A stretch of DNA of 64,000 nt from Prochlorococcus sp. AG-409-P03 (GTDB lineage Bacteria; Cyanobacteriota; Cyanobacteriia; PCC-6307; Cyanobiaceae). Shown here piece after piece: positions 57,192 to 60,546 of the stretch; the first letter of the stretch is position 1, and each line of letters starts with the position of its first letter. The translations under genes were made by a program, and so were the position numbers. The notes beneath the pieces were generated by a model that worked only from the letters and a program-made list of their open reading frames with translations, ran no database searches and was not told the DNA's origin. The DNA lies in contig QCKN01000002.1 of NCBI GenBank assembly GCA_003215295.1, forward strand, positions 1-64,000, in the 5' to 3' direction.

Positions 57192-57926
57192 TCAAACTTC
57201 CTTCTCCAACGCCAAGAGCTGTTCCTTGTGGAGGCTCCGAATTCCTGGTTCTGCAACATCTAAAAGACTATTAAGTTCTGCCCTGGTGAATGCTTTTCTC
57301 TCCGCCGTACCTTGTATCTCTAAAAAACGACCATATGAATCCATAACAATATTTAAATCCACATCAGCCCTTGAATCTTCACTGTAATCAAGATCCAACA
57401 AAATTTTTCCATCCAACAACCCTACAGAAACTGCAGCAACTTGACCTTTCATAGGATTCTTAACCAACTTCTTATTCGCCATTAATCGACTAAAGGCGCG
57501 TTCAAGAGCAATCCATGACCCAGTGATTGCGGCTGTTCTTGTCCCGGCATCAGCCTGAATAACATCACAATCAATGAGCAGAGTATTTTCACCTAGAGCT
57601 TCCAACTCAACCACAGCCCTCAGGCTCCTACCTATAAGACGTTGAACTTCTTGCGTCCTTCCTGAAAGTTTAATTAATTCACGGTTTTGCCTTTGAGGCG
57701 TAGACCCAGGAAGCAAGCGATATTCCGCACTTAACCAACCTGAACCAGAACCCTCGCGCCATCGAGGCACCCCTTCCTTAAGAGAAACACTACAAAGTAA
57801 CGCTGTAGATCCAGTGTGGACAACTAACGAGCTGACCGCAAATCCCATCGGATCCCAATCAATATTGAAAGGCCTTAAATCATTCGGCATACGCCCATTA
57901 AAACGTTGCTGCAAAGAAGAGTTCAT
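57192..57926 (-). CDS. rph: Ribonuclease PH
   Basis: Phosphorolytic 3'-5' exoribonuclease for tRNA 3' processing. The 244-residue protein has MPNDLRPFNIDWDPMGFAVS, GWLSAEYRLLPGSTPQRQNR and the phosphate-site block TLLIDCDVIQADAGTRTAAI, followed by SEDSRADVDLNIVMDSYGRF. ATG 57926 (MNSSLQQRFNGR) is used; ATG 57959 would add 11 residues. The ntcA promoter lies in the short gap after its stop codon. Confidence 0.96.
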   Translation of the reverse strand: MNSSLQQRFNGRMPNDLRPFNIDWDPMGFAVSSLVVHTGSTALLCSVSLKEGVPRWREGSGSGWLSAEYRLLPGSTPQRQNRELIKLSGRTQEVQRLIGRSLRAVVELEALGENTLLIDCDVIQADAGTRTAAITGSWIALERAFSRLMANKKLVKNPMKGQVAAVSVGLLDGKILLDLDYSEDSRADVDLNIVMDSYGRFLEIQGTAERKAFTRAELNSLLDVAEPGIRSLHKEQLLALEKEV

Positions 57927-58066
57927 TAATACCTCACAAGACATGTCAAGGAAATTCAACCCAAAGAGGCAGATTCAACACCATAGATAGTGTCATAAAA
58001 CTTGTATAGCTCAATCTAGCCGCTAGATTTGTAGAAATGGTTTTTTTGCTAGCTTCCTAGACCCTC

Positions 58067-58684
58067 ATGACTGCAAGCCTAGGCATTGGCCATCTAGCAA
58101 CTAACAAGACTGCATTGCAAAGTCATCGAACCTTGCAATCAGTACCTTCTCCTGAAGAAAGAGCAGAATTACATCTTGTTGGGGCAGAGGGGCAACTACA
58201 GGTTCACACAGCGCCTTACAGAGGTAGTTTTTCTGTGGTGCTAAGTGAAGCTCTAAGAGCTGCCGGATTAGGGAGTCAGGTAATGGTTGTTCAATTCTTA
58301 AAAGGAGGAGTTGCCCAAGGTCCTAATGGGATGGTTCAGCTCTGTGGAAAACTCAAATGGCTCAGACCAGAAGTACTTAGTTGCATAGCCGAACCCGCAC
58401 GCAAAAATTTCTTAGATAAGGAGACTGATGAAACCACCCCAGAAAAAGCCATTGCAGACATTTGGGAAATATGTCGGGAACAACTGTTAAAAGGTGATCT
58501 TGACCAAGTAGTGCTAGATGAGATTGGTCTTGCAATAGCACTTGGATATCTAACAGAAAAAGATTTCATTTCTACCCTGGAAAAGCGTTCAAAAAAAATT
58601 GATGTCATTCTTACAGGCCCCTCCATTCCTCCAGGAGTCATGAAAATGGCTGATCAGGTCACCGAACTCCGCTGTGGCAACTAA
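58067..58684 (+). CDS. cobO: CobO-like cob(I)yrinic acid a,c-diamide adenosyltransferase family protein
   Basis: Corrinoid adenosyltransferase family (CobA/CobO type). The 205-residue protein has the family C-terminal features: VMVVQFLKGGVAQGP, the Walker B-like DQVVLDEIGLAIALGYL, and VILTGPSIPPGVMKMADQVT. The N-terminal ATP loop, normally GNGKGKTT, is replaced by APYRGSFS at the aligned position (about residues 50-57), so the usual Lys and Thr are missing. Either the family branch in picocyanobacteria binds ATP differently, or it has another role. Starts the cobO-dcd-thyX run. Confidence 0.8.
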   Translation: MTASLGIGHLATNKTALQSHRTLQSVPSPEERAELHLVGAEGQLQVHTAPYRGSFSVVLSEALRAAGLGSQVMVVQFLKGGVAQGPNGMVQLCGKLKWLRPEVLSCIAEPARKNFLDKETDETTPEKAIADIWEICREQLLKGDLDQVVLDEIGLAIALGYLTEKDFISTLEKRSKKIDVILTGPSIPPGVMKMADQVTELRCGN

Positions 58685-59277
58685 TGCTTAAAAATGATCG
58701 CTGGATTACAGAACAAGCCAATGCAGGAATGCTTGAGCCTTTTCAAGATGGCCTTGTGAGACATCTAGAGCCAAAGACCAAAGAACACCCTGTACTTAGC
58801 TTTGGTTGCTCATCATATGGATATGACTTAAGGCTTTCTCCAAAAGAATTTCTGATATTTCGTCATGTACCTGGGACAGTTATGAATCCAAAGCACTTTA
58901 ATCCTAACAACCTTGAACAAACACCATTAAACAAAGATAAAGACGGAGAATATTTCATACTTCCTGCACATTCTTATGGGTTAGGAGTTGCGCTCGAAAA
59001 AATGAAAGTTCCAGCAAACATAACTGTAATATGTCTTGGAAAAAGTACTTATGCACGTTTGGGAATTATCGTCAACACAACACCTGCAGAGGCAAGCTGG
59101 GAAGGACATCTCACTCTAGAGTTTAGTAATAGTTCAGGCGCAGATTGTAGGATTTATGCGAATGAGGGTATCTGTCAACTTCTTTTCTTTGAAGGTGATC
59201 CATGTGAAACCACATATTCCGACAGAAGAGGCAAATACCAACATCAACCTGAAAGAGTCACTCTTGCAAAGGTATAA
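58684..59277 (+). CDS. dcd: dCTP deaminase
   Basis: Makes dUTP (or dUMP in bifunctional forms) from dCTP, feeding dTMP synthesis. The 197-residue protein has LSFGCSSYGYDLRLSPKEFL, the GKSTYARLGIIVNTTPAEA active-site block and the late RGKYQHQPERVTLAKV. Its ATG shares a base with the cobO stop (TAATG), and thyX follows after 2 bases, so the enzymes for dUMP and dTMP are tightly coupled. Confidence 0.95.
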   Translation: MLKNDRWITEQANAGMLEPFQDGLVRHLEPKTKEHPVLSFGCSSYGYDLRLSPKEFLIFRHVPGTVMNPKHFNPNNLEQTPLNKDKDGEYFILPAHSYGLGVALEKMKVPANITVICLGKSTYARLGIIVNTTPAEASWEGHLTLEFSNSSGADCRIYANEGICQLLFFEGDPCETTYSDRRGKYQHQPERVTLAKV

Positions 59278-59279
59278 AC

Positions 59280-59918
59280 ATGAGCAATATTGAATTAATA
59301 AGCAGTACTCCTGATGCAGAGAAAACAATGGCATTTATTGCCAGAGTAAGTAATCCTAAGAATCAAGAAAATCAAGATTTTGCAAAGTTACTCAAATACT
59401 GCATAGAGCATGAACATTGGAGTGTCTTTGAACAGGCATATATGACACTTCAAATTGAAACCAATAGAGGAATTGCAGCTCAAATACTGCGGCACAGGTC
59501 GTTTACTTTTCAGGAATTTTCACAACGCTATGCGGAAAGCACGCAACTTGGGAACATTCCACTACCTGAACTACGCCGTCAAGATGTCAAGAATCGTCAA
59601 AACTCAACTGCAGATCTTCCAGAAGAGATTTGCCAAGAATTTGAAAGCAGAATTCAAGAACAATTCCAAAAAACCATTGACCTTTACCAAGAGATGCTTG
59701 CAAATGGTGTAGCAAAGGAATGTGCACGTTTCATTCTTCCATTAGCTACACCTACAAGAATTTATATGACTGGCTCGTGTAGATCTTGGATTCACTATAT
59801 AAAGCTACGTACAGGGCATGGCACACAGAAAGAGCATATGAGTATTGCTGAAGAATGTAAACAGATCTTTTGTGAAACTTTCCCAGTTGTTGCAAAAGCT
59901 CTTGAATGGCTAACCTAA
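59280..59918 (+). CDS. thyX: FAD-dependent thymidylate synthase
   Basis: Flavin-dependent dTMP synthase used instead of ThyA in these cyanobacteria. The 212-residue protein shows the ThyX motif RHRSFTFQEFSQRYAEST near 72-88 and the C-terminal LATPTRIYMTGSCRSWIHYI plus LRTGHGTQKEHMSIAE. It ends the dcd-thyX unit; both act in thymidylate supply. Confidence 0.96.
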   Translation: MSNIELISSTPDAEKTMAFIARVSNPKNQENQDFAKLLKYCIEHEHWSVFEQAYMTLQIETNRGIAAQILRHRSFTFQEFSQRYAESTQLGNIPLPELRRQDVKNRQNSTADLPEEICQEFESRIQEQFQKTIDLYQEMLANGVAKECARFILPLATPTRIYMTGSCRSWIHYIKLRTGHGTQKEHMSIAEECKQIFCETFPVVAKALEWLT

Positions 59919-59976
59919 AAACTTCTTCCTATATAGTTGATCTTCCTATCAACAAATCTATGGATTCATTAACTTA

Positions 59977-60546
59977 CTACGCATGACTCATCGGCATAGT
60001 TTTGCTATCAGTCAAGTCTCTTCTTTCCGACTGTAAAAGGCTAACCTCAAAATCCTTATTCTTATTACTTGTCATAGAATTAGGAACGGTTCCTTCCTCT
60101 TTAAGAGAATTAATGAACCCACTTAATTCTTCCTCAGTGCGAACACCTAATGAGCGACCTTGATAAACACCATCTGCGTCAAAGAAGCTTAGTTGAGGTA
60201 TTCCATTAACTTGATAGCGCTTCACCAAGTCTTCCCACCGAGAATTATCTACATTTAGCAAGACAATATCAACTTGGTTTATTACTTCACGCTCTATAGA
60301 AATCATTGATGGAGCCATCTTGCGACAGGCCTCACACCAATCTGCATAGAACTCAACAACAGTCGGCCGACCATTAGACAAAGCAATCTCAGGGTCAAGA
60401 GAATTCTTTGCTAATTGATCAAGAGGTGATTTAGCACTGAAGCCTCCTTTAAAGAAAAAGAGGAAACTCGCCAAAAGCAATCCTGCAAGAACAAGAAAAA
60501 TCTTTTGGAAATTGTCTAATGCTTCAGATTCCACAACATCTTTCAT
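59977..60546 (-). CDS. Membrane-anchored thioredoxin-like protein (TxlA/HCF164 type)
   Basis: A 189-residue protein with one N-terminal membrane helix (KIFLVLAGLLLASFLFFFKG) and a thioredoxin domain with the active site VVEFYADWCEACRKMAPSM (Cys-x-x-Cys) and cis-Pro in NGIPQLSFFDADG. The topology and the WCEAC site match TxlA/HCF164, which carries reducing power into the thylakoid lumen for cytochrome b6f assembly. It is divergent from glmM. Confidence 0.9.
   Translation of the reverse strand: MKDVVESEALDNFQKIFLVLAGLLLASFLFFFKGGFSAKSPLDQLAKNSLDPEIALSNGRPTVVEFYADWCEACRKMAPSMISIEREVINQVDIVLLNVDNSRWEDLVKRYQVNGIPQLSFFDADGVYQGRSLGVRTEEELSGFINSLKEEGTVPNSMTSNKNKDFEVSLLQSERRDLTDSKTMPMSHA

Follow-up and report, generated by a model that had tools for sequence, protein, structure and literature searches.

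A cyanobacterial CobO-like protein family without a Walker A motif that accompanies the class II ribonucleotide reductase NrdJ

The window (the whole 64,000-nucleotide stretch of Prochlorococcus sp. AG-409-P03 that was analysed) encodes a CobO-like protein whose ATP-binding loop is missing. The absence of the Walker A motif extends well beyond this gene and is a family-wide trait of PRK07414, a widespread cyanobacterial family whose occurrence tracks the B12-dependent ribonucleotide reductase NrdJ. We consider the protein to be an accessory of NrdJ and not an adenosyltransferase, with a probability of roughly 0.6. This reading is favored because the protein appears to combine the CobA fold with the loss of the ATP loop, is under selection, is paired with dcd, and occurs almost only together with the adenosylcobalamin-dependent reductase. 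The initial annotation of the gene, made from the sequence alone, had suggested a changed role for a CobO-like protein next to dcd and thyX. That interpretation is partly supported overall, and the breadth of the family and its association with the reductase go beyond it.

Family assignment and predicted fold

The gene lies at 58067 to 58684 on the forward strand and encodes a protein of 205 amino acids, identified by profile and structure matches. The protein matches the Pfam family PF02572 (CobA_CobO_BtuR) at 91.7 bits (cut-off 25.7). Its best family in NCBIfam is PRK07414 (NF005648, "P-loop NTPase family protein"), which it matches over positions 16 to 174 of 178, nearly the whole length of the model, but its score of 158.7 bits lies under the cut-off of 248. 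The listed members of its own family (f1) likewise all score below 248 bits. The protein is an orthologue of PRK07414 by the tree, in which a single branch unites it with members that exceed the cut-off, and by its neighborhood, since the pair with dcd is common to both.

A phmmer search of solved structures matches the protein to Salmonella CobA (1g5r and 4hut, E about 1e-10). An AlphaFold2 model built with 53 relatives has a pLDDT of 81.6, the first approximately 40 residues being of low confidence. Foldseek with this predicted model finds 4hut (E 8.3e-11), and VIA-align superimposes it on CobA with a Z score of 19.4 (152 residues, rmsd 2.8, 29% identity), while the next family after CobA is RecA with a Z score of 12.2. 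These matches point to a CobA-type RecA-like fold. The protein resembles CobA/CobO/BtuR proteins (PF02572, TIGR00708) in this predicted fold, in the QF-KG strand and in the DE of Walker B. In contrast to those proteins, PRK07414 lacks both GxGKGK[ST] and FTW and forms a separate branch, and the window protein reaches only 78.3 bits against the CobA equivalog TIGR00708 (cut-off 167.75).

The name "P-loop NTPase" for PRK07414 is misleading, as no member covering the loop among those examined has a P-loop. The labels "P-loop NTPase" and "CobO" are wrong at the decisive site and can mislead counts of B12 genes. A literature search under the names PRK07414 and PRK07413 (the tandem CobO described below) found no paper, and among titles neither a loop-less CobO paralogue nor its link to dcd and NrdJ was found.

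Loss of the Walker A loop

The GNGKGKTT loop of Salmonella CobA aligns without gaps with APYRGSFS, residues 49 to 56 of the window protein, in the phmmer alignment, which places Arg52 in the column of CobA Lys39. The segment that replaces the loop, TAPYRGSFS (residues 48 to 56), is encoded at 58208 to 58234 on the forward strand. The alignment with Salmonella CobA thus bears out the initial annotation, which had reported a CobO-like protein without Walker A. That annotation placed the segment at 58202 to 58260; a replacing segment does exist, but these coordinates are slightly off, as HTAPYRGSFSVVLSEALRAAG (residues 47 to 67) occupies bases 58205 to 58267. It was also correct that the VQFLKGG strand (residues 75 to 81, 58289 to 58309, forward strand) and the Walker B-like VVLDE (residues 148 to 152, 58508 to 58522, forward strand) are retained, as judged by alignment. 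The P-loop of CobA is one residue shorter than usual, a feature described in work on THEP1 as important for adenosyl transfer (PMC1079890).

The family alignment contains 137 PRK07414 proteins from picocyanobacteria and distant cyanobacteria, 27 canonical CobO proteins and 30 tandem CobO proteins (the 137 were obtained from 148 rows by removing proteins with identical C-terminal 150 amino acids and second copies of one locus). The G-K-[ST] signature is found in 0 of the 136 PRK07414 members that cover the loop, the 137th (L019) being a fragment without this region. Walker A is kept in 27/27 canonical CobO proteins and, in each of the two domains, in 30/30 tandem proteins. A frameshift, an assembly error or chance was considered as the cause of the missing loop and is rejected by the count of 0/136. 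Arginine occupies the column of CobA Lys39 in 135 PRK07414 members, and the exception (L156) has asparagine. QF is kept in 133/137 and the DE of Walker B in 135/137, and 23 columns are invariant among 28 diverse members.

The FTW of the segment GFTWETQ is present in 27/27 canonical CobO proteins versus 0/137 PRK07414 proteins. We take this segment to act in corrinoid binding through Phe91 and Trp93 of CobA. FTW is also found in 0/30 tandem proteins in either domain, so its loss is a poor guide to corrinoid binding in either direction.

Tree and selection

In a tree calculated without the loop columns, 43 PRK07414 rows and five Gloeobacterales extras lie on one side of a branch with an SH-aLRT of 99, and CobO and the tandem domains fall apart from this side. 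The tree is midpoint rooted and includes 43 PRK07414 rows out of 137 and 10 tandem proteins out of 30; it is to be read with caution because the groups meet along long branches. If the Gloeobacterales extras are set apart from PRK07414, two changes on the tree are required. The simplest reading of these sequences would be a single loss of the loop that preceded the spread of the sampled cyanobacteria. Among the 25 closest pairs listed from 42 PRK07414-family sequences, dN/dS ranges from 0.015 to 0.245, and the PRK07414-type gene is under purifying selection.

Extra diverged PRK07414 paralogues without a P-loop are present in three genomes of family f13 (G281, G319 and G344). They are located at L327:1161-1853, L327:5437-6018, L328:922-1506, L329:1347-2096 and L330:1522-2037, and all five have arginine in place of the loop when inspected by eye. 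Two other loci (L187 and L188, in G041 and G103) encode a very divergent CobO (branch length 1.38) in a lineage without NrdJ, PRK07414 or PRK07413.

Pairing with dcd and thyX

Both genes that the initial annotation had noted beside the CobO-like gene lie directly downstream of it. The dcd gene (dCTP deaminase-like, profile match) is at 58684 to 59277 on the forward strand, and its ATG has a single base (58684) in common with the stop codon that ends the CobO-like gene. It is followed after two bases by thyX, encoding the thymidylate synthase complementing protein (Thy1, profile match), at 59280 to 59918 on the same strand. A scan of 57900 to 60000 found no sigma-70-like promoter on the forward strand. 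A riboswitch at the CobO-like gene was considered and rejected, as Rfam at gathering thresholds gives a single tRNA in the whole window.

The next gene downstream, in the same orientation, is dcd in 80/80 picocyanobacterial loci and in 9/18 distant cyanobacterial loci, and thyX is found within 1500 bases downstream in 42/80 and 0/18, respectively. The 80 nearest loci come from named genomes, mostly of Prochlorococcus and Synechococcus with some of Cyanobium and Vulcanococcus. Among the 18 distant loci (of which one with the dcd pair is that of genome G036), dcd is the commonest neighbor, and nine have no adjacent dcd. The other open reading frame families shared by at least three of the 18 are rph (in four) and one long frame (in three); two more lie opposite PRK07414 and dcd and are antisense shadows. 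The PRK07414-dcd pair is likely to be old.

Co-occurrence with the class II reductase

Two draws of genomes were searched for PRK07414 and NrdJ. In the phylum draw (244 genomes; PRK07414 at E <= 1e-33, NrdJ model TIGR02505 at E <= 1e-20), PRK07414 is present in 77 genomes and NrdJ in 85. NrdJ is found in 77/77 genomes with PRK07414 versus 8/167 without it. Three of the eight NrdJ-only genomes (G092, G155 and G232) belong to the class, while G085 and four near-threshold genomes lie outside it. Of the 167 PRK07414-negative genomes, 20 were listed by name; a TIGR02505 match occurs in one of these 20 and none exceeds the cut-off of TIGR02504. Class I large subunits are the probable source of the partial TIGR02504 matches among them, as this model also picks up E. 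coli. For Synechocystis, use of NrdA/NrdF is described (PMC7133116).

In the class draw (135 genomes; PRK07414 at E <= 1e-29), PRK07414 is present in 128 genomes and the RTPR-type NrdJ (TIGR02505) in 122, with both in 117. A class II reductase is found in 127 of the 128 PRK07414-positive genomes. Eleven of these positive genomes have no TIGR02505 match: nine exceed the cut-off of TIGR02504 (NrdJ_Z), one (G036) has an intein-bearing NrdJ_Z that falls just under it (394.7 bits, cut-off 399.95), and the last (G278, 8% contamination) has no match to either model. NrdJ is still present in 5/7 PRK07414-negative genomes (G287, G307, G311, G328 and G336; G287 is 87% and G307 68% complete), which goes against a strict link. 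A loose re-search of 28 genomes without PRK07414 gave no score above 78 bits, which is where CobO proteins score, and in 6 of these 28 the PRK07414 model at E <= 1e-5 found no CobO-family match. Fisher tests on the co-occurrence take no account of kinship, and 37 PRK07414-positive genomes are common to both draws.

In neither G036 nor G000 is nrdJ close to the PRK07414 gene: it sits on a separate contig or roughly 0.45 Mb away, which weighs against the accessory role. The NrdJ frame of G036 (L331:814-5616) holds LAGLIDADG and intein splicing domains, and NrdJ matches that are split within long open reading frames point to inteins in numerous other cyanobacteria.

Kinship was examined with an rpoB tree of 72 of 74 genomes (G165 had no rpoB match and G026 a fragment only); the rows of G032 and G150 are partial, and G150 is joined weakly to its neighbors. 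On this tree NrdJ changes five times and PRK07414 eight times. PRK07414 is absent from four of the five lineages that lack NrdJ, and the fifth is the doubtful G278. In pairs that differ in PRK07414, NrdJ differs in the same way in two to three, in the opposite way in none, and does not differ in four to five. In the reverse test, PRK07414 differs in the same way in one to three of the three pairs that differ in NrdJ, and in the opposite way at most once. The independent-pairs sign test was not significant in either direction, the events being too few to reach significance. In the closest contrast pair, within one genus, G262 has PRK07414, NrdJ and the tandem CobO, while G089 has the tandem CobO only. 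The pattern reads as though PRK07414 needs the class II reductase while the class II reductase is not always in need of PRK07414, and a link between the two is supported.

Other CobO proteins of the genome

The assembly (GCA_003215295.1, 1.36 Mb) is 70.6% complete. Its contig C12 encodes a canonical CobO (PF02572 at 216.6 bits, loop GHGKGKTT). Replacement of CobO by the loop-less protein was considered and is rejected by this canonical copy. PduO- or EutT-type enzymes are not needed to explain adenosylation because canonical CobO is present. The genome also encodes a tandem CobO on C18 (a 412-residue open frame with both loops intact) and an RTPR-type NrdJ on C11 (E 1.7e-283). The changed role proposed by the initial annotation is supported by a genome that keeps both a normal and a tandem CobO, as well as by the family-wide losses of the loop and of FTW.

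The tandem protein, PRK07413 (NF005647), is likewise a cyanobacterial paralogue of CobO, and across 74 genomes its occurrence is nearly the same as that of NrdJ. Unlike PRK07414, it has two domains with GKGK[ST] intact in both, and these loops suggest that it works as an enzyme. Among the 74 genomes, it is over its cut-off in 46/46 that have PRK07414 and in 1/20 that have neither PRK07414 nor NrdJ (G089). Eight of these genomes carry NrdJ without PRK07414: PRK07413 exceeds its cut-off in four of them, stays below it in G328 (351 of 426 bits), is represented by a fragment in G232, and is missing from G307 and G336.

Possible roles of the loop-less protein

The loop-less CobO paralogue is probably a non-catalytic pseudo-adenosyltransferase that serves the adenosylcobalamin-dependent NrdJ. 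Such a protein would bind either the completed coenzyme (probably adenosyl-pseudocobalamin in cyanobacteria) or the tandem CobO PRK07413. It would then hold the coenzyme or pass it to NrdJ, alone or beside the tandem CobO, and being produced together with Dcd (and ThyX) would connect it with the dNTP supply. Cyanobacteria such as Prochlorococcus are described as making pseudocobalamin (PMC10547690). An adenosyltransferase acting as an escort is described for human MMAB, which serves methylmalonyl-CoA mutase (PMC8633584), and the working proposed here would be analogous, the coenzyme being handed to a B12 enzyme, but the MMAB/PduO-type protein is catalytically active. Escorting or holding of the coenzyme is, by this analogy, the likeliest form of the accessory role, although the escort mechanism itself is somewhat less probable than not. 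The MMAB/PduO-type fold is not homologous to the CobA type. To our knowledge, no protein has been described as a dedicated partner of class II reductases. If the paralogue does load or protect the coenzyme, B12 supply would be linked to DNA synthesis in very abundant photosynthetic organisms, and the handling of B12 for NrdJ would become testable in laboratory strains.

The main rival to an accessory of NrdJ is a nucleotide-binding regulator of dNTP supply that would sense a (d)NTP through the remnant of its RecA-like site and would target Dcd or NrdJ with no corrinoid involved. Such a regulator would account for dcd as the most frequent neighbor in distant loci (9/18), for the retention of the Walker B DE and of the arginine (each in 135/137) and for the loss of FTW. 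However, the lost loop is required for classical phosphate binding, and the predicted model matches CobA far better than it matches thymidine kinase or RecA. We regard a regulator as unlikely. The same arginine at the Lys39 column (135/137), together with the retained QF and DE strands, could instead indicate an active adenosyltransferase whose unusual ATP site uses Arg52 and its neighbors in place of the P-loop lysine; PduO-type adenosyltransferases show that a P-loop is not needed in principle. Against such an enzyme, G-K-[ST] and FTW are both missing, and a third enzyme would be superfluous beside the two CobO paralogues of this genome whose loops are intact. We regard activity of this kind as quite improbable. 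The absence of both motifs might also be expected of a decaying or wrongly assembled gene without function, but the gene is present in 128/135 genomes of the class draw, all 25 listed pairs have dN/dS values far under 1, and 23 columns are invariant in 28 diverse members. Decay is scarcely credible in view of these observations. An accessory of NrdJ remains the preferred reading.

A more specific form of this accessory role is a dedicated escort or activase that would keep NrdJ loaded with adenosyl-pseudocobalamin and would form, with PRK07413, a three-part module for DNA precursors that has been partly taken over by cyanophage. We regard this extended proposal as rather doubtful.

Tandem CobO in cyanophages

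Phage cob genes in general have already been tied to class II reductases in a review (PMC10452541). The cyanophage P-SS2 is described as carrying class II nrd, dcd and thy1 (PMC2784084). Carriage of the loop-less paralogue by phages was considered and rejected on the three P-SS2 records among the tblastn hits, whose CobO is of the tandem type; the one other hit is in an unannotated phage. A scan of viral contigs for the loop-less paralogue gave 96 pattern stretches with no relative among them. The gene labeled cobO in P-SS2 (L317:991-2025) belongs with the tandem CobO PRK07413, having both P-loops and 52% identity over 375 amino acids. A scan of viral contigs for the tandem type found nine loci, of which only one (L318) is close (88%).
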